From contig NZ_CAJATU010000098.1 in assembly GCF_903944925.1 (NCBI RefSeq), forward strand, positions 124,001 to 188,000: a stretch of 64,000 bases of DNA, written 5' to 3'. The notes beneath the pieces are model-generated. The model was not told the origin of the DNA. It did no database searches and saw only the letters and a list, made by a program, of their open reading frames with translations. The position numbers were made by a program, and so were the translations under genes. This document shows positions 9,055 through 47,372 of the stretch, in pieces (position 1 is the stretch's first letter; each line of letters begins with the position of its first letter). The DNA is from an uncultured Rhodopila sp. (GTDB taxonomy: Bacteria; Pseudomonadota; Alphaproteobacteria; Acetobacterales; Acetobacteraceae).

Positions 9055-10683
9055 CTACATCACCTGCCGCAGCACGAAATACAAGCTCCCCGACATCAGG
9101 ATCGCCGCCGGCAGCGTCAGCACCCAGGCCGCCAGCATGTTCTTCACCGTGCTCCATTGCAGCCCGGCGCCGCTCGCCGCCATCGTCCCGGCGACGCCGC
9201 TGGACAGCACGTGCGTGGTCGAAACCGGCAATCCATAAATATCCGCCGCAGCGATCGTCGCCGCCGCGACCAGTTCGGCCGACGCCCCCTGCCCATATGT
9301 CATGTGCGTCTTGCCGATTTTCTCGCCGACAGTGATGACGATGCGCTTCCAGCCGACCATCGTGCCAAGACCCAGTGCCACCGCAACGGAAACCTTGACC
9401 CAGGTCGGGATGAACTTGGTGCTGTCATCAAGGACGCCCTTGTAGATTTTCAACGCACTCGCTTCCTTGGCCGTGAAAGCCACATTCTGCTTCTGCATCA
9501 CGCGGATCGCTTCGGACACCATGAACATCTCATTGCGGATGTTCTGCACCGCCGCCGCCGGGACCTTGTTCAGCGAGCCATAGGCCTTGACCTGATCCGT
9601 GATGTCGCCCGCCAGCGAACCCAAAGCGGCAAACACCGGCTTGGTATCGACCTCGCGCAGCTTCAGCGCGTCGGTAACGATCGCTTCGGCGGCCGGCGGC
9701 GGGAAGGTCAGGTTGCCGCCGCGGTTGTCGAAGACAGCCTGCGCCTGTTGCGTCGCTGCCACGAAGGCCGGCAGATGGCTGTCCGGCACGGCGCGGTTGA
9801 GCGCATACGCAGTCGGGAGGGAGCCGATCAGGATCAGCATAATGAGGCCCATGCCCTTCTGCCCGTCATTCGATCCGTGCGCGAACGACACCGCGCCGCA
9901 GGTCAGGCAGAGCAGTCCGCGAATCCAGGCCGGTGGCGCCTTGCGGGTCTCCGGTGCCGTATAAAGCCGCTTGTCGCGAACCAGCGCCTTCATCGCCAGC
10001 AGCATCAGCGCGGAACCGATAAAGCCGACCAGCGGGCTGAACAGCAATGCTTTGAACACGCCCATGGCCTGCGACCAGTCCACGCCGGATGTGGCCGCGC
10101 CCTCCGACATCAACTGGTTGGCGACACCCACGCCGATGATCGAGCCGATGAGGGTATGCGACGAACTGGCCGGCAGCCCGAGAAACCAGGTGCCGATGTT
10201 CCAGACGATCGCGGCGATCAGCAGCGCGAAGATCATCGCGAACCCGGCACCCTGGCCGACCTGCAGGATCAGTTCGACCGGAAGCAGGCTGACGATGGCA
10301 AAGGCGACGGCGCCCGAGGATGTAAGAACGCCGAGGAAGTTCATCGTCCCCGAATAGATCACCGCCACCTGCGGCTGCAGGCTGTGCGTATAGATGACCG
10401 TCGCGACCGCGTTGGCGGTATCATGGAAGCCGTTGACGAACTCGAACGCCAGCGCGATCAGCAATGCGATCCCCAGCAGCACGAAGGCGCCCCAGGCAAG
10501 AGCCGGAGCCCCGCTGTCCGTGATGTCGTTGGTCAACCCGCGGACCGTCCAGAACAGCCCGAACACCAAAAGGGCCAGGAACACCAGGATTCCGCCGATG
10601 TGACCGCCGCCTTCGAAGCTGGGCCGGATATCCTGTGGCGTGTCGAGTACGCGCGATTGCTGATCCACTGTCGTTTCTGACAT
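9055..10683 (-). CDS. pit: PiT-family inorganic phosphate transporter
   Basis: The 542-residue inner-membrane protein has about 10-12 hydrophobic segments and the two PiT signature repeats: GFHDTANAVATVIYT (about residue 85) and FAHGSNDGQKG (about 285). A PASSSHTLIG element and a second PVSTTHVLSS element match the duplicated PiT fold. It imports metal-phosphate using the proton or sodium gradient. A long soluble insertion (about 330-430) is rich in charged residues. No PhoU-like DUF47 partner lies next to it, which is a common but not universal neighbour. The start follows GGGGAAG at suitable spacing. Confidence 0.95.
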   Translation of the reverse strand: MSETTVDQQSRVLDTPQDIRPSFEGGGHIGGILVFLALLVFGLFWTVRGLTNDITDSGAPALAWGAFVLLGIALLIALAFEFVNGFHDTANAVATVIYTHSLQPQVAVIYSGTMNFLGVLTSSGAVAFAIVSLLPVELILQVGQGAGFAMIFALLIAAIVWNIGTWFLGLPASSSHTLIGSIIGVGVANQLMSEGAATSGVDWSQAMGVFKALLFSPLVGFIGSALMLLAMKALVRDKRLYTAPETRKAPPAWIRGLLCLTCGAVSFAHGSNDGQKGMGLIMLILIGSLPTAYALNRAVPDSHLPAFVAATQQAQAVFDNRGGNLTFPPPAAEAIVTDALKLREVDTKPVFAALGSLAGDITDQVKAYGSLNKVPAAAVQNIRNEMFMVSEAIRVMQKQNVAFTAKEASALKIYKGVLDDSTKFIPTWVKVSVAVALGLGTMVGWKRIVITVGEKIGKTHMTYGQGASAELVAAATIAAADIYGLPVSTTHVLSSGVAGTMAASGAGLQWSTVKNMLAAWVLTLPAAILMSGSLYFVLRQVM

Positions 10684-10791
10684 GGCTCTTCCCCAAATAT
10701 TTGTCCCAAGATGCTGCGCTTGCGCGGGAATTGGTATTACAGAACGATGACAAATCGGCGCCGCGGGGCGCGGTTCGATGAAATTCCGGCT

Positions 10792-11706
10792 TCAGCGCGC
10801 AGCCACGAAGACCTGCTTTGTTGCGTAGGAGATCCACACGCGGCGGCTCGCCAGCCAGTCCTGCCCCAGGAGCATGTGCACGAATAGCGGCAGTCGTACC
10901 GGCGCGACCCAAATCGCCGGCTTGTCGAGCGCCTCCCCGCCGGCATCCAGCGTCCGGAACCTGTGCAGGTGCATCGGCACTGTATGCGGTCCCAGTCCGC
11001 TGATCGAGTCCACCGGGTCCGCCGTGAGGTTGGAGTCCTGCAACCGCATCCGCACCATCCCCGGTGCGGTCAGCAGCGTTGCGCCTGAACCGCTGTCGAG
11101 CAGCGCGCGCAACGGGGTGCCGTCGAGGCTCACCGCGACGATGATCCCCTGTTGGGCCGGAAACGAGACGGAAATGGACGTATAGGCGCCGGACCAGGGT
11201 AAAAAGCGCCCCGCGCAGTCCTGCACCGTGTAGATCGACAGGCGATGAGCCGGGATGTCGAGATCCAGGTCGAACACCGACAGATAGTCGCGCCCGAGCA
11301 GGCCGTCGATCACGCGATCGCCGGCAACGGCCCGCGGAATGATGCCGACGGTCAGGCTGGTGTCATGGTTCAGCGTCCGCCGCACCAGCTTCACCCCACC
11401 CATACTGAAACTTCGCGGATCGGCATTGGCGCGGCGGTCGATGCCGCCGACACCGCTCAGGGTCGTGCCAACCCATTGGTCCCGCGCCAGACCGAGGCGG
11501 CGGACGGCCTCGCCGGTCACCACGGAACGCTGCGCGCCGGTGTCGAGGATGAAGGATGCAGCGATGCCGTTCACCTCCACCGGGACGATGATCGCGCCGT
11601 TGACGACGTCGAGCGGGATTGTCGCCCGTGCCGTCACCGAACACGCCGCATCAGCGGTGGCAGGGAGCAGCAGGGCGCATAGAAGCAGCAGGATCTTGCC
11701 GGACAC
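10792..11706 (-). CDS. Periplasmic retropepsin-like aspartic protease with two protease domains
   Basis: The 304-residue product starts at GTG 11706, which gives an immediate Sec signal peptide (KILLLLCALLLPATADA). Upstream in-frame starts would overlap the divergent chromate gene. Two retropepsin-like halves follow: ILDTGAQRSVVTG (about residue 52) and LLDSGSGATLLTA (about 205). Each has a downstream hydrophobic-hydrophobic-GxD segment (LLGRDYLS and LLGQDWLA). A tandem pair in one chain gives a pepsin-like pseudo-dimer. The second half has DSG in place of DTG, which is also catalytically competent in the family. The substrate is unknown. The gene is divergent from the chromate transporter genes. 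Confidence 0.85.
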   Translation of the reverse strand: MSGKILLLLCALLLPATADAACSVTARATIPLDVVNGAIIVPVEVNGIAASFILDTGAQRSVVTGEAVRRLGLARDQWVGTTLSGVGGIDRRANADPRSFSMGGVKLVRRTLNHDTSLTVGIIPRAVAGDRVIDGLLGRDYLSVFDLDLDIPAHRLSIYTVQDCAGRFLPWSGAYTSISVSFPAQQGIIVAVSLDGTPLRALLDSGSGATLLTAPGMVRMRLQDSNLTADPVDSISGLGPHTVPMHLHRFRTLDAGGEALDKPAIWVAPVRLPLFVHMLLGQDWLASRRVWISYATKQVFVAAR

Positions 11707-11797
11707 GCGGGTTCTTTCATGGTTCGGCCGGATGTTACGCCCGGGCCACACGCCGTATAATTGCCGCGCGCGCTCGGCGCCGCTAATTCGTCGCCGG

Positions 11798-12343
11798 ATG
11801 TCCGAAACGCGACCCGCCCCCACCGTGTTCGACTTGTTCGCCGGCTTTTTCATCGTCGGCCTGTGCGGCTTCGGCGGCGTGCTGCCCTGGGCGAGACGGA
11901 TGATCGTCGATCAGCGCCAGTGGCTGAGCCTGACCGAGTTTACCGACATGCTCGGACTCTGCCAGTTCCTGCCGGGCGGCAACATCATGAACGTCACCAT
12001 CGCGCTGGGATCGCGATTTCGCGGCGTGACGGGGGCGGCTGCGGCGTTCCTCGGACTGATGGTGGCGCCGACGGCGATCGTTATCGGCCTTGGCGTGCTC
12101 TACGACCGCTACGCCGAATTGCCGCCGGTCCGGCACGGGTTCACGGCGCTGTCGGCCGCCGCGGCGGCCTTCATGGTCTCGAACGCCTGGAAGATCGCCG
12201 CGCCGTTGCGCGGCCGCAGGTTGGCCATCGCGATCGCGGTGTGCACGTTCCTCGCCTTTGCCGTGCTGCGCCTGCCGCTGCCCGCGGCGCTGCCGGTGCT
12301 ATTGCTGGGATCGACCGCGCTACTGTGGCGGTTCCGGTCATGA
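11798..12343 (+). CDS. chrA: Chromate transporter, N-terminal half protein
   Basis: The 181-residue membrane protein corresponds to the first of the two homologous halves of the CHR family. It carries FFIVGLCGFGGVLPWARR (residues 15-32), followed by the conserved FTDMLGLCQFLPGGNIMNV segment near residue 47. The short-chain CHR group encodes the halves as two separate proteins that work together, and that is the case here. The family exports chromate, and some members may move other oxyanions or have no demonstrated role. The ATG at 11798 is chosen because it starts exactly at the family N-terminus. The stop overlaps the next start (ATGA). Confidence 0.85.
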   Translation: MSETRPAPTVFDLFAGFFIVGLCGFGGVLPWARRMIVDQRQWLSLTEFTDMLGLCQFLPGGNIMNVTIALGSRFRGVTGAAAAFLGLMVAPTAIVIGLGVLYDRYAELPPVRHGFTALSAAAAAFMVSNAWKIAAPLRGRRLAIAIAVCTFLAFAVLRLPLPAALPVLLLGSTALLWRFRS

Positions 12344-12870
12344 GCACGCTGCCGGACCTGGCGGTCGTGCACGCGCAGCTTTCGCTGCTCGCATTCGGCG
12401 GCGCCGCCGCGATCATCCCGGAAATGCAGCGCCAGGTGGTGGACGTGCATCACTGGATGGATGCGCGCGAGTTCGCCGCGCTGTACGCGCTGGCTCAGGC
12501 CGCGCCCGGGCCGAACCTGATGGTGGTCAGCCTTGTCGGCTGGCGCGTGGCAGGTTTCTGGGGTGCGCTGGTGACGACGGCGGCGATTTCGGCGCCGTCC
12601 TCGATCCTGACCTTGCTGGTCAGCGGGGTCTGGTATCGGTTCAAGGATGAACCGCTACGGAAGGCGCTACAGGCCGGGCTGCAGCCCGTGACCGCCGGAC
12701 TGATCATGGCCAGCGCGGCGCTGCTGATCCGCAGCACCGCGATGGACTGGTCAACCGCGGCCGTAGCCCTCATAACGGCGGCGCTGTTCATTTTCACCAA
12801 GGTGCATCCGCTGCTGATCCTCGCCGGGGCCGCGCTGGCCGGCGCCGCGGGCGTGTTCGGCCAGGCATAA
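12340..12870 (+). CDS. Chromate transporter, C-terminal half protein
   Basis: The 176-residue membrane protein is the second half of a short-chain chromate transporter pair. LLAFGGAAAIIPEMQRQVV (residues 14-32) and the LAQAAPGPNLMVVSLVG segment (about 50-66) are the family landmarks; the APGPN block is the most conserved. Its ATG overlaps the stop of the first half by four bases, so the two subunits are likely made in equal amounts. The protein faces the opposite membrane orientation to its partner in studied pairs, which is family knowledge and not visible here. Confidence 0.85.
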   Translation: MSTLPDLAVVHAQLSLLAFGGAAAIIPEMQRQVVDVHHWMDAREFAALYALAQAAPGPNLMVVSLVGWRVAGFWGALVTTAAISAPSSILTLLVSGVWYRFKDEPLRKALQAGLQPVTAGLIMASAALLIRSTAMDWSTAAVALITAALFIFTKVHPLLILAGAALAGAAGVFGQA

Positions 12871-27936: not shown

Positions 27937-30321
27937 ATGAATGCGCCGATGACAACGATCGCGCCGCTCTCAACGCCGGAAACGCGGCGCGTGCACATCC
28001 TCAAGCAGTTGGAGCGCAAACTGCTCTGGCTGTCCGCCTGGATGATCCACAACGCCAACCACATCCGCCCTAACCGGGACGGACTGAAAGTCGGCGGTCA
28101 CCAGGCGTCCTGCGCCTCCTGCATCTCCATCCTGGCGGCGCTGTATTTCGAGGTCGCCCGGCCGCAGGACCGCATCGCGGTCAAGCCGCATGCCGGGCCG
28201 GTGTTCCACGCCATGAACTACCTGTTCGGGCGGCAGACCCGGGACAAGCTGGAACGCCTGCGGCAGTTCGGCGGCATCCAGCCCTATCCGTCGCGGGTCA
28301 AGGACGGGGCGGAGGTGGATTTCTCCACCGGCTCCGTCGGCCTGGGCGTCGCCATGACCAGCTTTGCCGCGCTGATGGCGGACTACGCCCGGCTGCACGG
28401 CATCGGCCGCACCGATTTGCCGCCCGGCCGCCACATCGCCATCTGCGGCGACGCCGAACTGGACGAGGGCAATATCTACGAAGCCCTGCTGGAAGGCTGG
28501 AAGCACGACGTCCGCAATGTCTGGTGGATCGTCGATTATAACCGCCAAAGCCTCGATTCCGTCGTCCCCGACCGCCTGTTCGGCCGCATCGAGGGCCTGT
28601 TCCGCGACATGGGCTGGAACTGCGTCACCATCAAGTTCGGCCGCAAGCTGGAAGCCGCCTTTGCCCGCGACGGCGGCGAGGCGCTGCGCGACTGGATCGA
28701 TGACTGCCCCAACAGCCTGTATTCCGCCCTGACCTTCCAGGGCGGCGCGGCCTGGCGGCAGACCCTGCTGTCCGACCTGGGACGATCGAAGGCGCGCGCC
28801 ATCATCGATGAGCTGAACGACGAGGAACTCGGTGCGCTGATGACCAACCTCGGCGGCCACGACATCGAGACGGTCATCGAGACCCTGCGCGCCGCCGATG
28901 CCGACAGCGACCAGCCGACATGCTTCATCGCCTACACCATCAAGGGCATGGGGCTGCCCTTCGCCGGCCACAAGGACAACCACGCCGGCATGATGAGCAA
29001 GGAGCAGATGGAGCAGTTCCGCCAGGACATGCATATCCGCCCCGGCCATGAGTGGGACATGTTCGAGGGTCTGGACGTGCCCGAGGCGGAGCTGCAGGCG
29101 TTCCTGCGCGATTGCCCGTTCGGCACGCCTTTGACCCCGTCGGGCCGGCTGCTGACCGCGCCGGAGGTGTTCGTGCCGCCGGTGCTGCCGAACCCCAAGC
29201 AGAGCGGGCGCAAGATGTCGACCCAGGGCGGCTTTGGCGAAATCCTCGCCGAAATCGGCCGCGGCCAAGGGGATTTGAAGGACCTCGCCGCTCACATCAT
29301 GACCACGTCGCCGGACGTGACCGTTTCCACCAACCTCGGCCCCTGGGTGAACCGGCGCGGCATCTTCGATCGGCATACGCGAAACGACGTGTTCCGCGAT
29401 TCGAAGCTGGCGTCGGCGCAGCGCTGGGGGATGTCGCCGAAGGGCCAGCACGTCGAGCTCGGTATCGCCGAGCAGAACCTGTTCCTGCTGCTGGGCGCCG
29501 CTGGACTGGCGCCGGGGATGACGGGCGCGCGGCTGCTGCCGGTGGGGACGGTGTACGATCCGTTCGTCAACCGCGGCCTGGATGCGTTGATCTACGCCTG
29601 TTACCAGGATGCGCGGTTCCTGCTGATCTCGACGCCGTCCGGCCTCAGCCTGGCGCCGGAGGGCGGCCAGCACCAGTCGATCAACACCCCGCTGATCGGG
29701 ATGGCAGCCGATCGGCTGGCCAGTTTCGAACCGGCGCATGTGGATGAGCTGGGGATACTGCTGCGGCACGCATTCGACTTCATGCAGCGTCCGGACGGTT
29801 CCGCCGTGTGGTTGCGCCTGTCCACCCGGGCGCTGGAGCAGAAGCCACGCGAACTGGACGCGGTGGCGGTGATCGCCGGTGCGCATTGGGTGGTGCCGCC
29901 GGCGGAGGGCGCGCGGATCGCCCTGGCCTACCAGGGGCCCGTCGCGCCGGAGGCCGAGGCGGCGTTCGAAGTGCTGCGCGACGAAGACCCGGCGGCCGGA
30001 CTGCTGGCTCTGACGTCCCCCGATCGGCTGTACGCCGGCTGGCTGGACGCGCAACGGGCGCGGCGGACGGGGAATCGCGGGGCGGTGTCGCATATCGAGC
30101 GGGTGCTGGCGCCGCTGGCGCGCGGGGCGGCCTTGGTGACGGTACTGGACGGGCATCCGGCGACACACTCCTGGATGGGGGCGGTGCGCGGACAGAGGGT
30201 GGTGCCGCTGGGCCCGGACCATTTCGGGCAGAGCGGTGATATCCCGGACTTGTACCGGGAGTATGGCCTGGATACGGACGCGATCCTGGATGCGTGCGCT
30301 CAGGCGATGTTGGCGGAATAG
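27937..30321 (+). CDS. AceE-like thiamine-diphosphate 2-oxoacid dehydrogenase E1 (transketolase superfamily)
   Basis: The 794-residue protein resembles homodimeric pyruvate dehydrogenase E1 / MdeB-type enzymes. It has HQASCASCISILAALYF near residue 53, VKPHAGPVFHAMNYLFG near 84, and the thiamine-diphosphate motif GDAELDEGNIYEA (about 172) followed by VDYNRQS. A central pyrimidine domain begins near STNLGPWVNRRG, and GIAEQNLFL (about 510) contributes the catalytic Glu. No E2 or E3 gene is adjacent. Length is about 100 residues less than AceE, mainly at the N-terminus that binds E2 in E. coli, so it may act as a transketolase-like or 2-oxobutyrate enzyme. Substrate unknown. Confidence 0.8.
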   Translation: MNAPMTTIAPLSTPETRRVHILKQLERKLLWLSAWMIHNANHIRPNRDGLKVGGHQASCASCISILAALYFEVARPQDRIAVKPHAGPVFHAMNYLFGRQTRDKLERLRQFGGIQPYPSRVKDGAEVDFSTGSVGLGVAMTSFAALMADYARLHGIGRTDLPPGRHIAICGDAELDEGNIYEALLEGWKHDVRNVWWIVDYNRQSLDSVVPDRLFGRIEGLFRDMGWNCVTIKFGRKLEAAFARDGGEALRDWIDDCPNSLYSALTFQGGAAWRQTLLSDLGRSKARAIIDELNDEELGALMTNLGGHDIETVIETLRAADADSDQPTCFIAYTIKGMGLPFAGHKDNHAGMMSKEQMEQFRQDMHIRPGHEWDMFEGLDVPEAELQAFLRDCPFGTPLTPSGRLLTAPEVFVPPVLPNPKQSGRKMSTQGGFGEILAEIGRGQGDLKDLAAHIMTTSPDVTVSTNLGPWVNRRGIFDRHTRNDVFRDSKLASAQRWGMSPKGQHVELGIAEQNLFLLLGAAGLAPGMTGARLLPVGTVYDPFVNRGLDALIYACYQDARFLLISTPSGLSLAPEGGQHQSINTPLIGMAADRLASFEPAHVDELGILLRHAFDFMQRPDGSAVWLRLSTRALEQKPRELDAVAVIAGAHWVVPPAEGARIALAYQGPVAPEAEAAFEVLRDEDPAAGLLALTSPDRLYAGWLDAQRARRTGNRGAVSHIERVLAPLARGAALVTVLDGHPATHSWMGAVRGQRVVPLGPDHFGQSGDIPDLYREYGLDTDAILDACAQAMLAE

Positions 30322-30563
30322 AAGGGTCTTGGCGCGACCTGCGATCCGCTCCGGCGACGAAGCGTTTGAAACCTTTACAGATCAGACACTTCCAGAGGAC
30401 ATCGGTTCAGCGAACCGAACAGCAGTGAAGAACCCCTCCGGAGGACCGAGACCACCGGACGGACCTGCCGCATAAGGACGTCGCAGACCCGCCACGACAC
30501 ATCGCGGGTGCATGGGTCTCAACAGTGGCGAATCGCACCGTTGTGGTGTACGGAGGCTGCGGG

Positions 30564-31955
30564 CTAATATCGGGATAAGTTCCGGCCAAGTACATCTGTC
30601 AACTCGCTTATATCAATCTCAAGCTCCGTAGAGGCAAACCCCCCTTTCGCGTAAACACGTTCGAACCGATGACCGAGACCATTGGCTAAATTGCGGAAGA
30701 AATCCGGCCTGAAGGGGCTTGATGGCATGATTTCAATCACCAGACAGCCTGTTTCGGCAAAAATCAGGTTCGCAAAACCGGCACCGTGCAGTGCCACTAC
30801 AGCCTCCGCCTCTGAAAAAAGGCAGAATTGCTGCGTGAAAGATAAGTCCTCCAGGTGCAATTCCTCAAAGCCGAATTCCTTGGCGATCTCGACGGCAGCT
30901 TTCTCATTGAGAGCCCGCCTGGACCGGGCCCTTGCCCGAGAGATAAACAGCCGTCTGGCCTGGCTTCTCTTGAAATTTAGTTTACTCCCCAGATATTCCG
31001 CGCACCGTCGCAAAACGAACGGGTTCCGAACCACCCCCCACTCCACAATCGCTCTTTCCGGGACCAATAAATCATCCACCTTCATAGACGATAGATCATC
31101 CATCTGGAAAATCTGCGATTCAATACCAAATGCCTGTGCGATTTCGCTCTGAAATTTGCTTTCTATTCTTGTTGTCAGTAGCGGCGTTGTGTCGTCTATC
31201 TGGTCGCGGACGGCAAACAAATTTACCAAGTCTTCCGCAAGATGGTGATAATAATTTTGATAGCCGCCGATGAGGCAAGCCCTGGCTTGCCGTGTATATT
31301 TAGGGGTCGGATACAACACGACGCCACGACCGTGACTTCTCTGTAAATGGGTCATCCGAGGGACAAATAGACAACCGCTCCCGTCCAGTATGATCCAGTC
31401 CGTCGACACCACCCTCGCGTTTTTAATGGAAAAGCTTTTGTCGCCGTACGATACGCGACGCGTCGTTTGCAAGAACCGGCTTTTATGCCGAAGCGGGAAC
31501 GGTGCGCTGAGTTTTTCATCAACCAGGTCCAACGCAGCTCGCCTCGATAGCAACTCGAACGTTTCCCACTCGCGAACCCATTTACGCGATATGGAAACAG
31601 ATCCACCCCTTTCAGCACACAAGTAATTACCATTCCCCGAGATGGCAATTTTGTTAGAGCTAAGGTAGTGAATGGTGAGGTTGTTCTCACAAAAGCTTGC
31701 TTCATCACATATGGAAATCAGACAGTCAATGGCTAAGTGCAGGAACCTGTCGGGCCTTCTGTGTAATGTGAGCACGGGTTTCTCTCCCATCTGCGTCATG
31801 CAGACGAGGGACGCCAGGCTTTCCTTTGATAGGGCGTCGGCTGATACCTGCTTGAGCTTTCCGTTGTCCTCGTCATAAACCAAAAAAGATGAATGGGTGA
31901 CATTGTACAAGAACGTTATTTGTGCAGGGGAGATCCCGCTGAATTCAGTAGACAT
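30564..31955 (-). CDS. GT61-type glycosyltransferase (DUF563)
   Basis: The 463-residue protein shows the GT61 core. YYHHLAEDLVNLF (about residue 230) contains the family histidine, ARRLFISRARARSRRALNE (about 330) gives the RxxSRxxAxxR element, and AVVALHGAGFANLIFAETG (about 388) gives the HGAGxxN motif. This family transfers pentose or GlcNAc to glycans or lipopolysaccharide. Codons are AT-richer than in neighbouring genes, a sign of recent transfer. It overlaps the preceding minus-strand ORF by 11 bases, and GAGG precedes the ATG. Acceptor unknown. Confidence 0.82.
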   Translation of the reverse strand: MSTEFSGISPAQITFLYNVTHSSFLVYDEDNGKLKQVSADALSKESLASLVCMTQMGEKPVLTLHRRPDRFLHLAIDCLISICDEASFCENNLTIHYLSSNKIAISGNGNYLCAERGGSVSISRKWVREWETFELLSRRAALDLVDEKLSAPFPLRHKSRFLQTTRRVSYGDKSFSIKNARVVSTDWIILDGSGCLFVPRMTHLQRSHGRGVVLYPTPKYTRQARACLIGGYQNYYHHLAEDLVNLFAVRDQIDDTTPLLTTRIESKFQSEIAQAFGIESQIFQMDDLSSMKVDDLLVPERAIVEWGVVRNPFVLRRCAEYLGSKLNFKRSQARRLFISRARARSRRALNEKAAVEIAKEFGFEELHLEDLSFTQQFCLFSEAEAVVALHGAGFANLIFAETGCLVIEIMPSSPFRPDFFRNLANGLGHRFERVYAKGGFASTELEIDISELTDVLGRNLSRY

Positions 31956-32583
31956 CCGACCTCGCGTGCTGCGAACCGAGCTGCGCTAGCGAACGGACCT
32001 TGGTTCGCCCGCGGCCGCCGCGCCTTCCAGAAATAGTCTTGATGCGTCCAATGTAGCTGACAATCGACCGCGGAAGGTCAGCTTGCTGCGGCTGGGTCGC
32101 TCCCAGTCCATCACCCTTGCTATGCTTGCGGTCTGCGTCGTCTTCCCGATAACCTGGACGCAAGTTGCAGCGGGTATGGTGCAGCTCGCGAACTAACCCG
32201 GGTTCGCGGCAATGATGCATCGCCAATTTGCCAAACCGTTCATTCGGCTCAGGCCTCCTGTAGATCGCACACGCGTAGTCTTGTGCTTTCCCGGCAACAA
32301 CTGCCCGATTCGCCGCTCGCATGATGGTTTGCGCCTGAGCGGCCGGAACGCACCCAGCGCGGCTCGTTTCGGGGCCGAGAGTGTAGGTCGTAGGGGCCCC
32401 GAGGGTCGCCTTCATCATTCTGACGGAGAGCATGGCCGACTTGTCGGCCGCCTGAATGGTGGCAATGTCGGAATGCCGGTACGGCGCCGCCGACCCGGCA
32501 ACGCGAAGCATTTCGGTTACGGTAATGGCTTGACGCGCCCGGGGACCTTTCAATGCCTGCAATGTGTTGCTCCCTCCCGACAT
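31945..32583 (-). CDS. Weakly supported hypothetical ORF upstream of GT61
   Basis: An open frame of 212 codons reads a basic protein with no domain I recognise. Its stop TGA overlaps the GT61 start (ATGTCTACTGA), which is the only real argument for translation. The first 70 residues (TVTEMLRVAGSAAPYRHSDI and neighbours) look more protein-like than the Arg/Gly-rich end. A frame of comparable length exists on the other strand (32212-32700), so chance openness is quite possible. It could be a decayed gene. Confidence 0.25.
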   Translation of the reverse strand: MSGGSNTLQALKGPRARQAITVTEMLRVAGSAAPYRHSDIATIQAADKSAMLSVRMMKATLGAPTTYTLGPETSRAGCVPAAQAQTIMRAANRAVVAGKAQDYACAIYRRPEPNERFGKLAMHHCREPGLVRELHHTRCNLRPGYREDDADRKHSKGDGLGATQPQQADLPRSIVSYIGRIKTISGRRGGRGRTKVRSLAQLGSQHARSDVY

Positions 32584-33081
32584 TCACGTATCAATGGACC
32601 GGTTCAGCAACCAAGTCGCACAATACACTACGACTCGTGCCAGCGTGCCAACCACGAGCCGGGCCAGGGTCGTTTTGCCCAGCCCTCCGTTCCAGTTTAG
32701 TGACGATCGCCATGGGTTTCCCTGTGAGTCAGCCAACACCTAAATCGTCAGTACGTATTACGCAAAGAGAATTTATGCATGAAGGGCGCGCTAGGTCGGG
32801 ATGACCGGCCGCACGTGGCGCGCTGGTAGGTCAAGCACACCATCCGAAATTTGCGGCTTCGTGAGCCGTCGCCAGGAAGCCAAATCACAACGTCTGGCCG
32901 TCGCGCTGGCGGACGGTCGCCGTGATCCGCTGCTGCACCGAGAAACTCGTGCAGAGAGGCTTCCGGTCTTCGACCGACCGGGCCCGCTTCCGGCTTGTGC
33001 CGGATCATCTCGACCTGCGGCCAACCCACGGCGGTGACGAACAGACGCCCCCGCGGTGCGGTTTCGAGACGGACGATCCCG

Positions 33082-43147: not shown

Positions 43148-44407
43148 ATGACAGGTGTGGCGATCGGCATCGATCTCGGCACATCCGGCATCCGGGCGGC
43201 GCTCTTGGACGCGCGGCGTGACGTCGTCGCGATGACGCGTGCGCCGATCGGCGCCGCGGAACGCACCAACCCGGACGCCTGGTGGCACGCTCTGCGCGAG
43301 GCTATCGGCGCGCTGGCACGCAACGCCAGCCTGCGCAATGTAGACGGCATCGCCGTCGACGGGACCAGCGGCACAATCCTTCCGGTCGATACCGCCGGGC
43401 GGCCGCTCGCACCTGCCAGCCTTTATAACACCCTGGCTGACCCGGCCGACGTCGCTCGTGTGGCACGTGTCGCACCGCCCGGCAGCGCCGCTCGGGGGGC
43501 CTCGTCACCGCTGGCCCGCGCCCTGGCCTGGCGGAACCTGAAGGCCCGGGCGCATCTGCACCATGAGGCGGACTGGCTCGCCGGCCGTCTATGCGGCCGT
43601 TTCGGCCTTAGCGACTGGAACAACGCCCTGAAGACCGGTTACGACCCGGCCATCCCCGGGTGGCCCGAGTGGCTGCGTGCGCTGGACCTCGATCCGGCAC
43701 TGCTGCCCGAGGTGGTGCCGCCGGGCCAAACCATCGGCCGGATTACCATGCCGAACGCACAGATGCTCGGCCTTCCGGCCGCTGTCAGGATCGTCGCCGG
43801 TACCACGGATGGATGCGCTGCGTTCCTGGCAACCGGGGCGGTTGAGGAGGGCGACGGGGTCACGTCACTCGGCACCACGTTGATGCTGAAGATGCTGTCG
43901 CCGCGTCCGGTTCTGGCGCCTGACCATGGTATTTACAGCCACCGCATCGGCGCGCTGTGGCTGCCGGGCGGGGCGTCGAACAGCGGCGGGGGCGCGCTGG
44001 CCAAATACTTTTCGCCGGCACAGCTTGCAGCCCTCAGCGCCCGGATCGATCCGTCCATTGTGTCGGGGTTGGATTTCTACCCGCTGCCGTCCGCGGGAGA
44101 GCGCTTTCCCGTCGCTGATCCCGCGCTGCCGCCGCGGGAGACGCCGCGGCCGGCTGACGATGCGGTGTTTCTGCACGGCATGCTGGAAAGCATAGCCCGG
44201 ATTGAGGCGGCGGGGTATCGGCGCCTGGCCGAACTTGGGGCGCCACGTGTCAGAAGGGTGTTCACGGTTGGAGGCGGGGCGCGTAACGCAGCGTGGGAGG
44301 CCATTCGAGGCCGGGTGCTAGGCGAATCGATGACAGGTGTTGAACTGCAGCCGCCTCGGGCGCTTGAAGCTGCCGTCGGAACAGCGGGACTGGCCCTGGC
44401 AGGATAA
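43148..44407 (+). CDS. FGGY-family carbohydrate kinase (ribulokinase-like)
   Basis: The 419-residue kinase has the ATP/sugar fold signatures: GIDLGTSGIRAALLD (residues 6-20, phosphate 1), VDGTSGTILPVD near 76, GTTDGCAAFL (about 218), TSLGTTLMLK and VGGGARNAAW (about 370). The short length and the DGTSGTIL loop resemble the D-ribulose kinase/xylulokinase-like subgroup rather than glycerol kinase (about 500 residues). AAAGGAGG lies 8 bases before the ATG. No sugar transport or isomerase gene is beside it, so the substrate is not assigned. Confidence 0.85.
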   Translation: MTGVAIGIDLGTSGIRAALLDARRDVVAMTRAPIGAAERTNPDAWWHALREAIGALARNASLRNVDGIAVDGTSGTILPVDTAGRPLAPASLYNTLADPADVARVARVAPPGSAARGASSPLARALAWRNLKARAHLHHEADWLAGRLCGRFGLSDWNNALKTGYDPAIPGWPEWLRALDLDPALLPEVVPPGQTIGRITMPNAQMLGLPAAVRIVAGTTDGCAAFLATGAVEEGDGVTSLGTTLMLKMLSPRPVLAPDHGIYSHRIGALWLPGGASNSGGGALAKYFSPAQLAALSARIDPSIVSGLDFYPLPSAGERFPVADPALPPRETPRPADDAVFLHGMLESIARIEAAGYRRLAELGAPRVRRVFTVGGGARNAAWEAIRGRVLGESMTGVELQPPRALEAAVGTAGLALAG

Positions 44408-44492
44408 TGTCCGCACTGAAGCGGAGGGGGATCGCCTCGTTCCGCCCTTGCCGCGCATGCAACATATACGCCATGAAGTCCAGCCGGGCTGC

Positions 44493-45701
44493 TCAGGACG
44501 AACGCTCCGCCAGATCGGCTTTGCGCGCGATCATCTTGTCGGCGAGCGCGCTGCTGCCGCCATTTTCGACGACGACTCTCAGTATTGCAGCGTCGGGAAT
44601 TTGTGTCACCACTGCGACGGCCTCACGGATCTCGGCAGCACTCATATCCCCGAAAAGCCTGGTCGCGTGACGATTGTCCGCGTCCTTGCGGAGCGTGTCG
44701 ATCTCGCCGACACACGCGCCGAACGCTTTGCCCTTCGGGTCTCCCTGCGCGCGAAACTCCATCGCGCCGCCAACGTCGAGCGTCATGACCACGCCCTTGG
44801 CGACACCCTGATTGTCGCCGTCGAACCCGGCTGCATCCCAGTTGGCTGTCCAAGCGTGCACTCCGAGCCAGTGCTGCGCTTGTCTGCGCTCGTTTTCGCT
44901 GAGCTGCGAAATCCGCTTTTTCTCAAGCTCGATAAACTCGGTGGCGATCTGGTTCGGTTCTTTCGCTTTCACATAGGTCAGCGTCGGCGCACCGGCCAAC
45001 TGATAAAGCTTCGCCGCAATGATCTCGTTGCGCGCGTGTGCGGGCGATCCCAGCGACTTCACATAGAACCGCCGGCCGGCCTTGTCCTGATAGACGCCAC
45101 CCGGGTGGGTTCCCATTTGCGGGCCGATCTTCTGCATGGTCGCCGTGTCGATGATGGGTTTCGTCCGTCTGACCAGCGCAAGCTGCGCCGGCGTCTCGAT
45201 CGCGCCTTGGCGCGCACGGCGAACGTCCCGAATAGCCAGCTCAGGAGGCATGCCCAATTCGACGAGAAGCCGGGCGGCAATCATGCCAGCCCGGCCAAGG
45301 CCGCCCTTGCAATGCACGAGCACATCGGCGCCGCTGCACAGCAGCGCGCGGATGTCTCCGCCATGCGTCTCCCACTGCCTCTCAAATGCGTCGGTCGGAA
45401 CAGAGTAATCGGCGATCGGCAGATGTCGCCAATCGATCCCGAGGCCTCGGATTTCCGCGCCGAGACCGGGCACCTTGAGCGCCGCGAGTTCGGCCGGCTC
45501 AACCAGCGTCAGCACCAGACGCGCGCCCCATGCACTGATGACACCGAGATCCGTTGCGAGATCGCGCGCCCAGGCCCCTGTTGCCGCCGCATTGTCATGC
45601 TTGCCGGGGCAGAATGTGATCCCGATCCGCCCATGCGACGGGCTTGCACGTACTTCCGCGATTTGAAGCGGGTGGGTCCAACTTGTCCGCGCTCCGGCCA
45701 T
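44493..45701 (-). CDS. Two-domain protein: CDKN3-type phosphatase fused to a kinase-like fold domain
   Basis: The 402-residue protein has two parts. Residues 10-180 match the cyclin-dependent-kinase-inhibitor-3-like dual-specificity phosphatases: WGARLVLTLVEPAEL, general-acid loop PIADYSVP (Asp98), and P-loop VHCKGGLGRAGM (Cys131, Arg137). Residues 195-380 match a domain otherwise seen in phage head-associated and stand-alone proteins, with a protein-kinase/HipA-like order: YVK (Lys215), NE (Glu226), NWDAAGFDGDN (Asp289, Asp296-Asn297) and LDVGGAMEFRAQG (Asp309). The second part's activity is inferred, not known. ATG 45701 has GAGAAGG upstream; ATG 45770 would add 23 residues. I see no partner gene. 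Confidence 0.78.
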   Translation of the reverse strand: MAGARTSWTHPLQIAEVRASPSHGRIGITFCPGKHDNAAATGAWARDLATDLGVISAWGARLVLTLVEPAELAALKVPGLGAEIRGLGIDWRHLPIADYSVPTDAFERQWETHGGDIRALLCSGADVLVHCKGGLGRAGMIAARLLVELGMPPELAIRDVRRARQGAIETPAQLALVRRTKPIIDTATMQKIGPQMGTHPGGVYQDKAGRRFYVKSLGSPAHARNEIIAAKLYQLAGAPTLTYVKAKEPNQIATEFIELEKKRISQLSENERRQAQHWLGVHAWTANWDAAGFDGDNQGVAKGVVMTLDVGGAMEFRAQGDPKGKAFGACVGEIDTLRKDADNRHATRLFGDMSAAEIREAVAVVTQIPDAAILRVVVENGGSSALADKMIARKADLAERSS

Positions 45702-45885
45702 TCTGCCTTCTCGAAAAAGGAAATCGGCGATCCAAGCGGGAGGATACCGCAACAGCCGGCGTCTGGCCATCAGCCATGCTTGATCGGGGAACGGCTGCCG
45801 GGGGCGTCAGCGTTCGCGTTCACTTCCGATGAACCGGTTTGCGGCACACCGCACCACTTTGTTGCGATGCTGTTCCGGCGGAAAC

Positions 45886-46719
45886 TCATGCATCGAAGAA
45901 CACCAGTGTCCGCAACTCAATACTTTCCCGAGGCACCATATCAGCCGGAGCATTTGGATCAGCGAACGAGGTGTGGGGCATGAATCGCGCCCGTCCGTCC
46001 TTGGCCGAATCGAAGCACTTCAGCAACAATGCCTCGTCCGCCCGCATCTCCGGGGCATAATACCAGCGGTGCGCCGGATTATAGGTCAGGCCGTAAACTT
46101 CTCCGGTCCGATCGCGGTAAATCAAATCCTGACCCACCAGATCGCCATCCGCAACCGACGCCGCATCGCACATTGCCAGAGGCGCATCATACAGCGGCCC
46201 GCGGATCGGCCGCCAGACATTCACGATAGCGAAACGGCGAGTCAGCAGATCATCCGCTTCCGCGCCCATCAGGTCGCGCACCCGCTGAGGCCCGGAAACC
46301 TCAGTATAATCACCATGAATCCGGGTCACCGGCTGGCGCGGCGTGCCGTGCGTGCGATCCTCCACACCCTGCTCCCGGCGCCGGATCGTATGGTCGAACA
46401 CCATGACCCGGTTGGCCCCGGTCGCCTGCTTCACCAGACCTTCGGCCTCTTGGTAATAGACCGAGCGAAGCTGCGCCTCGTCATAGAAATCGTCCACCGC
46501 CGTCGGGGCATCGATCAGCGCGAACCCTTGCGCGTCCAGACTCAGCCCGTCCGCAATCGGCCGCATGTCGAAAATCGGCACCACATGCGGGTCATTGACG
46601 ATATTGGTCCGCGCCACGCCGTCCGGCGGGTCATAGGTATAGGTGTGCGGCTTATCCGCGGTTTTCGCCAGGTAAACGACCTCTCCGGCCACCTGCGACA
46701 GCGACGAAACAACGTCCAT
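45886..46719 (-). CDS. CmcJ/NvfI-family oxidoreductase-like protein
   Basis: The 277-residue protein fits the CmcJ-type family, relatives of the cephamycin 7-alpha-methoxylation accessory protein and fungal AsqI/NvfI enzymes. Features are YTYDPPDGVARTNIVNDPHVV near residue 27 (read as YTYDPPDG and ARTNIVNDPHVV), the MVFDHTIRRRE stretch (about 107) and a HGDYTE segment (about 138) near a basic PQRVRDL. The HTI and HGDYTE histidines and the VNVWRP strand resemble a double-stranded beta-helix metal enzyme, which is inferred. AAGGAGG precedes the ATG. It is divergent from the TetR-type gene, which probably controls it. Confidence 0.72.
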   Translation of the reverse strand: MDVVSSLSQVAGEVVYLAKTADKPHTYTYDPPDGVARTNIVNDPHVVPIFDMRPIADGLSLDAQGFALIDAPTAVDDFYDEAQLRSVYYQEAEGLVKQATGANRVMVFDHTIRRREQGVEDRTHGTPRQPVTRIHGDYTEVSGPQRVRDLMGAEADDLLTRRFAIVNVWRPIRGPLYDAPLAMCDAASVADGDLVGQDLIYRDRTGEVYGLTYNPAHRWYYAPEMRADEALLLKCFDSAKDGRARFMPHTSFADPNAPADMVPRESIELRTLVFFDA

Positions 46720-46749
46720 GATTTCCATCCTCCTTGCCGATGGGCTATG

Positions 46750-46767
46750 CCACACCGATCTGTGTGG
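46750..46767. promoter_or_regulatory. Palindromic operator candidate in the divergent promoter region
   Basis: CCACAC-N6-GTGTGG (46750-46767) is a perfect 6+6 inverted repeat with a 6-base spacer in the 65-base gap between the divergent CmcJ-like and TetR-family genes. Position and symmetry fit a TetR dimer site. No consensus for this regulator is known, so the call rests on position and symmetry only. Confidence 0.5.
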
Positions 46768-46784
46768 ATCGCAGTTGGGAGCCG

Positions 46785-47372
46785 ATGGCGGCTTCCGCAA
46801 GTTCCATCCGACAGGAGTTGACCGGCGTGGCGCTCATGGCAGACCGCATCCTTCAGGCAGCCGATCGGCTGTTTTACCGGAAGGGGATAAGGGCGGTCGG
46901 GGTGGATGCTGTGGCGGCCGAGGCCGGGATCAGCAAACGTTCTCTCTACGACACGTTCCCGTCGAAGGACTCGCTGGTCGCCGCCTATCTGCGGCAACGC
47001 ATGCTGCCCCCGCCCGAATCGGGCGACCCGCCCGCGCAACAGGTGCTGGCGATGTTCGACCGACTGCGGGAGCGCTTCGCGGCGGGCGATTTCCGCGGCT
47101 GCGCCTTCGTCAACGCGGTGACCGAACTGGCTGAGGATTGCGACGCCGCCCGTGCCATTGCGATCCAATACAAGGACGCACGGCGCCGGCAAATCGAGTC
47201 GCTGTTGGCGCGGGCCGGAGCGGCGGACGCGGACACGCTCGCCGAACAGATCGCCTTGCTGATCGAAGGCGCAATCTCCACGATGCTGGTCAGGAACAAC
47301 TCTGCGGTCGCAGTACAGGCGCGTGATGCCGCCGCGATCTTAATGCGAGCGGCCGGGACGTTGCAGGGCTAA
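46785..47372 (+). CDS. TetR-family transcriptional regulator
   Basis: The 195-residue protein has a TetR helix-turn-helix (RILQAADRLFYRKGIRAVGV, AGISKRSLYDTFPSKDSL, about residues 18-60) and a helical ligand-binding C-terminus. ATG 46785 was chosen because GGGAG lies just upstream; ATG 46836 begins at the helix-turn-helix and is the alternative. It is divergent from the CmcJ-like gene with a palindrome (46750-46767) between them. The C-terminal part (GCAFVNAVTELAEDCDAARAI) resembles regulators of the AcrR type. Ligand unknown. Confidence 0.87.
   Translation: MAASASSIRQELTGVALMADRILQAADRLFYRKGIRAVGVDAVAAEAGISKRSLYDTFPSKDSLVAAYLRQRMLPPPESGDPPAQQVLAMFDRLRERFAAGDFRGCAFVNAVTELAEDCDAARAIAIQYKDARRRQIESLLARAGAADADTLAEQIALLIEGAISTMLVRNNSAVAVQARDAAAILMRAAGTLQG

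Follow-up and report, generated by a model that had tools for sequence, protein, structure and literature searches.

The gene described here lies on the reverse strand of the window, the whole 64,000-nucleotide stretch of uncultured Rhodopila sp. DNA that was analysed, and joins a phosphatase-type (PTP) domain to a kinase-like domain (KLD) in one chain (Table 1). The first in-frame ATG gives a frame at 44493-45770 (-), and this alternative ATG at 45770 adds 23 residues. We prefer the start at 45701, since homologues align from there. Among the scanned neighbours in the window, Pfam identifies an FGGY carbohydrate kinase, a flavin reductase-like protein and a TetR regulator, and one protein has no match. 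Upstream on the same strand, a 304-residue frame (45886-46800 (-)) has no Pfam match at E ≤ 1; we take it to resemble CmcJ/AsaB-type proteins. A 548-residue frame runs antisense to the PTP-KLD gene at 44337-45983 (+). Such antisense frames cluster across 78 of the 82 sources in our flanking-frame clustering, as is expected of shadow frames in G+C-rich DNA. Elsewhere, the G+C content falls to about 0.55 at window positions 30001-33000, against 0.62-0.70 over most of the window, and this stretch is possibly recently acquired DNA.

Table 1. Features of the PTP-KLD gene (window positions)
Feature	Position	Strand	Basis
Whole gene PTP-KLD (phosphatase + kinase-like domain), 402 aa	44493..45701	-	ORF, Pfam, homologue alignment
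Predicted phosphatase domain (dual-specificity / PTP), residues 1-180	45162..45701	-	Pfam Tc-R-P, PTP-SAK and CDKN3 over cut-off; Foldseek KAP 1fpz, 2.1e-10
PTP signature loop VHCKGGLGRAGM, residues 129-140 (C131 nucleophile, R137)	45282..45317	-	Sequence; conservation
Kinase-like domain (KLD), residues 183-402	44496..45155	-	AF2 pLDDT 97.4, pTM 0.93; CtkA Z 15.1 over 202/220 residues
K215, beta-3 lysine equivalent	45057..45059	-	Invariant in 102 sequences; predicted strand E29-34 of KLD model
E226, alpha-C glutamate equivalent	45024..45026	-	Invariant in 102 sequences; predicted helix H38-54 of KLD model
NWDAAGFDGDN, residues 287-297, catalytic-loop equivalent	44811..44843	-	D289, N297 invariant
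DVGG, residues 309-312, DFG-equivalent	44766..44777	-	D309, G311, G312 invariant

A phosphatase-type and a kinase-like domain

The N-terminal part matches three Pfam families, Tc-R-P (3.6e-9), PTP-SAK (1.8e-8) and CDKN3 (2.4e-6), all of which exceed the curated cut-offs, and its closest relatives among solved sequences are PTPs. The model of the full-length protein (pLDDT 91.5, pTM 0.76) has KAP/CDKN3 (1fpz) as its best PDB fold match in Foldseek (2.1e-10). By profile and fold, residues 1-180 are a CDKN3/KAP-like dual-specificity phosphatase with predicted activity, in keeping with the CDKN3-type phosphatase named in an earlier, sequence-only reading of this gene. The CX5R signature is present at residues 131-137 (CKGGLGR). 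In 79 aligned rows, C131 and R137 are each conserved in 78, the remaining row being a gap, and D98, the likely general acid, is conserved in 77, the others again being gaps. The fold and the CX5R loop are common to CDKN3/KAP and the archaeal PTPs (SsoPTP and Tk-PTP); unlike these, the window phosphatase is joined to a KLD and occurs in a nitrogen-fixation genome context. A stand-alone phosphatase 65% identical to that of the window was found in another genome (G068; locus L195, 2965-3720 (-)), for which neither DraT nor KLD is reported and no nifH was found at E ≤ 1e-60.

Searches of Pfam, PHROGs and NCBIfam return nothing for residues 183-402 at E ≤ 1. We aligned 102 KLDs (that of the window and those of bacterial and phage loci), and the AlphaFold2 model of the domain built from this alignment reaches a pLDDT of 97.4 and a pTM of 0.93. 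Foldseek searches of the PDB with this model returned CtkA first, and also RIO kinases, Bud32, JAKs, CDK2, phosphotransferases and HipA. Upon realignment, the KLD matched CtkA with a Z of 15.1 and an rmsd of 3.3 over 202 of 220 residues, and lower Z values were obtained for PI4KII-alpha (11.8), HipA (11.2), LepB (11.2) and HipT (10.5); families missing from this realignment list were not counted as excluded. The sequence profile of the KLD matches LepB alone, with an E of 0.36 that is not significant by itself. As modelled, the KLD folds like a protein kinase of the HipA/PI4K type. A kinase or HipA/PI3K-like fold had been proposed for it before, and the predicted structure, compared with kinases, sustains that proposal through the matches to CtkA, PI4KII-alpha, LepB and HipA.

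The motif order on which the sequence-only reading drew corresponds to K215, N225-E226, N287-W288-D289, D296-N297 and D309-V-G-G. The catalytic residues among these, K215, E226, D289, N297 and D309 (K33, E44, D107, N115 and D127 in domain numbering), are invariant in the 102 sequences, as are four glycines, K141 and E151 (domain numbering). Among the 79 bacterial rows, each of the five is kept in 78-79, the remainder being gaps. On the predicted structure they are ordered strand, helix, loop, loop and post-hairpin, as in kinases. From the fold match and these predicted secondary-structure positions it follows that the motif residues should lie in one pocket, and by analogy the KLD may well be an active kinase. 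Alternatively, the KLD might be a pseudokinase or a sensor of ADP-ribose or nucleotide that merely positions the phosphatase. Small kinase-like folds frequently have regulatory roles, which speaks for such a function, but the K, E, D, N and D positions are all invariant in the 102 phage and bacterial sequences, and we regard this alternative as highly improbable.

CtkA of Helicobacter pylori, PI4KII-alpha, the N-terminal part of LepB and HipA/HipT share the fold and the order of catalytic residues with the KLD, at 8-15% identity. Unlike them, the KLD lacks a Pfam match, is fused to or paired with a phosphatase and is tied to ADP-ribosylation contexts. Weak Pfam matches at E ≤ 1 occur among the 102 members for HipA_C (18/102) and HipA_2 (7/102). 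The domain is not a HipA in the strict sense: the HipA_C cut-off is not reached, and the window KLD matches no Pfam family at all at E ≤ 1. By searches of profile libraries, the KLD appears as a family of its own within the HipA/PI4K branch. Another candidate was the kinase of polyvalent proteins, whose Kinase-PolyVal domain we take to be PF18762. The window KLD does not match Kinase-PolyVal at E ≤ 1, and it is absent among the 25 of 41 matched families that are listed for other KLD members. We rejected this candidate as a different family, going by those parts of the polymorphic-toxin and polyvalent-protein literature that describe it.

Fused and tandem loci and their neighbourhoods

Full-length fusions that are 84-88% identical to the window protein exist in three further genomes of the genus (G007, G024 and G029). 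We also scanned genomes for KLD loci, requiring one motif, and analysed the best 80 of 140 confirmed loci, which are not a census. In these best 80 of 140, the KLD is fused to the phosphatase in 21 loci (three of them in the same genomes as the genus fusions), encoded in tandem with a separate phosphatase gene in 58, and without phosphatase in one (L097). The phosphatase is thus immediately upstream of the KLD in 79 of the 80. A candidate KLD start lies in a 4-base overlap with the PTP stop codon in 17 of the 58 tandem loci. The 21 fused loci include one with a shortened phosphatase part (L072) and one whose kinase frame ends early (L096); another locus is cut by a contig end (L033), and the kinase frame is interrupted in L094. 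One fusion is plasmid-borne, in Rhodobacter sp. CZR27, where it adjoins draG-draT. The three further genus genomes and the 21 fused loci among the best 80 of 140 exclude chance, and an assembly artefact or an arrangement confined to a single genome was rejected on the same grounds. The separate KLD genes of the 58 tandem loci also agree with the earlier remark that this domain occurs on its own.

In a tree of 107 KLDs, the 80 phosphatase-linked domains (the window's and 79 others) form one clade with an SH-aLRT of 100. Outside this bacterial clade are 26 phage domains, taken as every third aligned one, and the phosphatase-free L097, which groups with the phage rows. The change between the fused and the split state is required four times on this tree.

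The constant pairing is compatible with a self-limiting kinase, in which the phosphatase resets an autophosphorylated KLD as KAP does on phospho-CDK2. The best phosphatase fold, KAP/CDKN3, is named kinase-associated phosphatase in the PDB and was solved with phospho-CDK2 (1fq1), and fusion or tandem order in 79 of the best 80 of 140 loci suggests matched amounts of the two activities. However, the pTM of 0.76 for the full-length model leaves the mutual facing of the two domains uncertain, and resetting autophosphorylation does not by itself explain the link to DraT described below. We consider this explanation unlikely.

The surroundings of the pair were compared by clustering flanking frames from 82 sources, which are the best 80 of 140 loci, the window region and L013. 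The most frequent families are draT (14/82 sources) and draG (13/82). GGDEF-EAL proteins rank next with 12 sources, ahead of short-chain dehydrogenases and LysR regulators with 8 each; all three are large and common families that likely recur by chance. Smaller clusters occur in 6 and 5 loci. Two clusters, with 78 and 45 sources, consist of antisense or shadow frames of the PTP-KLD gene, and some others of shadow frames of draTG.

Within the flank retrieved (at most 8 kb, and less at contig ends), draT is present in 13 of the best 80 of 140 loci and absent in 67; in the window's own genome it is on another contig. Three arrangements were observed. In 11 of the 13 draT-flanked loci, draG-draT is downstream and convergent, as in Rhodobacter capsulatus (L084), where the fusion is convergent with draG-draT. 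In L043, draT is divergent. In L086, draT, PTP, KLD and a flavodoxin gene follow one another on one strand in an apparent operon, with draG beside them on the other strand. That the same genes neighbour the pair in three different layouts speaks for selection to keep them close together. The draTG region of R. capsulatus was reportedly described in Masepohl 1993, an account that may mention the neighbouring frame.

The flavodoxin gene that directly follows the pair in L086 has counterparts about 4-5 kb beyond the pair in L056, L094 and L085, which are too few cases to use. Near the Derxia pair, L056 carries two consecutive UMP-kinase-like genes and a flavodoxin gene (10325-12857); the former could encode molybdenum-storage proteins of a nif region.

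Upstream regions of the window gene and of 78 loci were searched for promoter elements. The sigma-54 -24/-12 consensus occurs in none of the 79 regions and a looser variant in one (0.2 expected), and NifA-type sites occur in 5 of 79 against 3.1 expected. A direct nif-type promoter is thus not supported by these 79 regions. To our knowledge, co-regulation by NifA and sigma-54 is not a defining feature of draTG itself.

Co-occurrence with DraT

Through ADP-ribosylation of dinitrogenase reductase, the DraT/DraG system turns nitrogenase off and on. We searched for DraT (PF07357, nitrogenase ADP-ribosyltransferase) in 77 genomes with a KLD locus from the best 80 of 140; L043 (the same strain as L026), L055 and L091 were left out. 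DraT was found in 74 of the 77 (48/49 and 26/28), against a background of 7 of 385 Alphaproteobacteria and 29 of 398 genomes of the phylum. The hosts of these best 80 of 140 loci belong, as we understand, mostly to nitrogen-fixing genera. Two of the three genomes lacking DraT (G432 and G477) are MAGs with nifH over the cut-off, in which the pair lies on a contig of 5.4 or 4.2 kb. The third (G495) has the locus without phosphatase, and neither DraT nor nifH was found in it.

Among 59 relatives of the window genome, the genomes with DraT and those with the fusion are identical, four in all and including that of the window (Fisher 2e-6, a type of value that is too favourable because the genomes are related). 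nifH exceeds the cut-off in those four and in one more (G023), which is 68% complete and has neither DraT nor the fusion. In the class sample, the pair is present in 2 of 385 genomes, both DraT-positive. In the phylum sample, where the kinase domain alone was searched, close KLD homologues (63-100% identity) occur in 3 of 398 genomes, all DraT-positive, and two distant matches (36% and 22% identity, in frames of 1333 and 1471 residues) occur in DraT-negative genomes. These samples overlap and are not independent: by coordinates, L018, L019, L024 and L068 are the same as G024, G007, G029 and G077, respectively. The pair is linked with DraT, a conclusion that we hold with high confidence.

The link runs in one direction. 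Of the DraT-positive genomes, 5 of 7 in the class sample lack the pair, and 26 of 29 in the phylum sample lack a close KLD match. The pair is not needed for DraT/DraG and is apparently optional. In a tree of 60 DraT proteins, 40 from KLD genomes (38 of the 74 DraT-positive ones plus G000 and G496) and 20 from among the 30 DraT genomes that lack a close KLD match, 7 changes of the KLD state are needed, whereas shuffled states need 17. This suggests that the pairing was gained or lost together with several DraT lineages.

A different origin of the link may be considered, namely that the KLD is a domesticated phage effector, kept as a defence gene or as a toxin tamed by the phosphatase, and that its association with nitrogenase is incidental and due to nif/dra islands. 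The position of the bacterial KLD clade beside phage domains fits this idea, and so do the presence of HipA among the fold matches and a homologue on a Streptomyces plasmid (L015, 36-5663 (+)), in which the KLD is the C-terminal domain of a 1875-residue toxin-like protein. (A related Streptomyces copy, L016 4941-5654 (+), carries internal stops and is apparently a pseudogene.) However, draT is outside the fetched flank in 67 of the best 80 of 140 loci, although 74 of 77 genomes encode it, a pattern that simple physical hitch-hiking explains poorly. Moreover, defence genes typically change fast, unlike the PTP-KLD sequences, which are 84-88% identical within the genus and whose catalytic residues, gaps aside, are the same in all 79 rows. 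An effector origin with an incidental nitrogenase link is very unlikely in our view.

Phosphorylation, ADP-ribose and the nitrogenase switch

The phosphatase and the KLD stand together in 79 of the best 80 of 140 loci, nearly always in DraT genomes. On this basis we read them as a reversible phosphorylation module, formed by two opposed enzymes, that acts on a protein of the DraT/DraG switch, and we assign this reading a probability of about 0.5. Being nearly restricted to DraT carriers among the genomes searched, the pair probably belongs to the nitrogenase off-switch as a part that has been overlooked. The analysis establishes the presence of the two domains, their predicted folds, the conservation of the catalytic residues, the gene pairing and the co-occurrence with DraT; enzymatic activity of either domain, their opposition and the identity of the substrate are inferred. 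Several findings count against this reading: the majority of DraT genomes in the class and phylum samples have no pair or no close KLD match, 67 of the best 80 of 140 loci show no draT in the fetched flank, the sigma-54 consensus is missing from all 79 upstream regions, and G432 and G477 carry the pair and nifH without DraT. In the proposed mechanism, the KLD would bind ATP in its HipA/CtkA/PI4K-like fold and transfer phosphate; by analogy, K215 and E226 would hold ATP, D289 would be the base, and N297 and D309 would bind metal. The N-terminal phosphatase would remove the phosphate added by the KLD through C131 and R137. As substrate, one of the switch proteins (DraT, DraG, NifH or a PII partner) is most likely, and a second covalent mark would then let the switch take in the energy or nitrogen status. 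The kinase and the opposing phosphatase would be provided by one chain in the window and by two adjacent genes in most relatives. AceK, HPr kinase/phosphorylase and PFK-2/FBPase-2 likewise unite opposed activities in one chain, as proposed here for PTP-KLD. Their domain pairings do not match PTP-KLD, and AceK uses one active site for both reactions.

Both domains also have separate connections to ADP-ribose. The viral KLDs were counted in 56 dereplicated complete proteins out of 80 loci. An ADP-ribosyltransferase exoenzyme domain is present in the same chain in 27 of the 56 and a NUDIX domain in 25; portal and MuF domains are present in 14 and 8, respectively (all at E ≤ 0.01), which accords with the previously noted occurrence of the domain in phage head proteins. 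Four KLD proteins from named phage and plasmid records were scanned, three of which have an ADP-ribosyltransferase and one of these also a NUDIX domain. The anti-CBASS enzyme Acb1 is joined to the KLD in 2 of the 56 phage proteins, and a topoisomerase IB domain is found in 2 of the 56.

On the phosphatase side, L005 and L006 encode fusions of the same subfamily to an ADP-ribosylglycohydrolase, and both proteins match Tc-R-P, PTP-SAK and CDKN3. The 20 best KLD-free phosphatase matches, except G000 and G077, were examined for their neighbourhoods. A glycohydrolase is in the chain or alongside in 5 of the 20, and none is within the fetched 3 kb or less in the other 15, several contigs ending within that distance. 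In the part of PMC9503650 that treats such proteins, the phosphatase is coupled to an ADP-ribosylglycohydrolase in slightly more than 55% of one bacterial neighbourhood set. There, such phosphatases are proposed to process released ADP-ribose, and the coupling is proposed to act against viral ADP-ribosylation; that part of the account does not mention the KLD. The fusions in L005 and L006 match the same phosphatase families, and the partner of the phosphatase differs, being a glycohydrolase in those systems, as far as that part of PMC9503650 describes them, and the KLD in the window protein.

Thus, the pair might instead perform phosphate chemistry on ADP-ribose: the KLD would phosphorylate ADP-ribose or an ADP-ribosyl adduct and make it resistant to DraG, and the phosphatase would reverse this so that the glycohydrolase can act. 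The phosphatase-glycohydrolase fusions and linkages, the published coupling (in the part of PMC9503650 cited above) and the ADP-ribosyltransferase and NUDIX domains of the phage proteins all favour it. On the other hand, a glycohydrolase is missing from the retrieved flank (3 kb at most) of 15 of the 20 best phosphatase relatives, and roughly one in two phage KLD proteins lacks an ADP-ribosyltransferase match. A literature search by title and abstract returned no ADP-ribose kinase of this fold, and we know of none; as far as is known, the folds closest to the KLD act on proteins or lipids. Chemistry on ADP-ribose is, on balance, an unlikely alternative.

A bolder form of this alternative is a phosphate lock, in which the KLD phosphorylates the ADP-ribosyl mark or its ADP-ribose and thereby blocks glycohydrolases, the partner phosphatase being the key. 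If true, it would explain why the KLD occurs with ADP-ribosyltransferases, the phosphatase with glycohydrolases, and both with DraT. Phages would carry the kinase with an injected ADP-ribosyltransferase, thereby protecting the marks on host proteins. The bacterial countermeasure would be the fusion of phosphatase to glycohydrolase, and nitrogen fixers would have taken over both the kinase and the phosphatase, making the nitrogenase off-state persistent yet reversible. We rate such a lock as decidedly unlikely.

Each of the two folds, phosphatase and kinase-like, is already known. In openly licensed PMC literature, no description of the pairing of the KLD with a phosphatase or of its tie to DraT was found, and the DraT/DraG link, the usual two-gene form and the ADP-ribosylation context in phages are likewise absent from the sequence-only reading. 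The pair differs from DraB, which is described as NifO/ArsC-like in PMC5249018. With respect to the DraT/DraG switch, with which it co-occurs and which it sometimes adjoins, the phosphatase-KLD pair would be an additional component, and apparently an optional one.

Textbooks use DraT/DraG to illustrate how bacteria regulate by ADP-ribosylation, and a conserved phosphatase-KLD pair that is nearly confined to DraT carriers suggests that some of them have a further enzyme pair. Since the KLD is common in phage proteins beside ADP-ribosyltransferases, its biochemistry may also help in understanding phages. How the nitrogenase off-switch is controlled, in turn, bears on nitrogen-fixing strains that are tolerant of ammonium.
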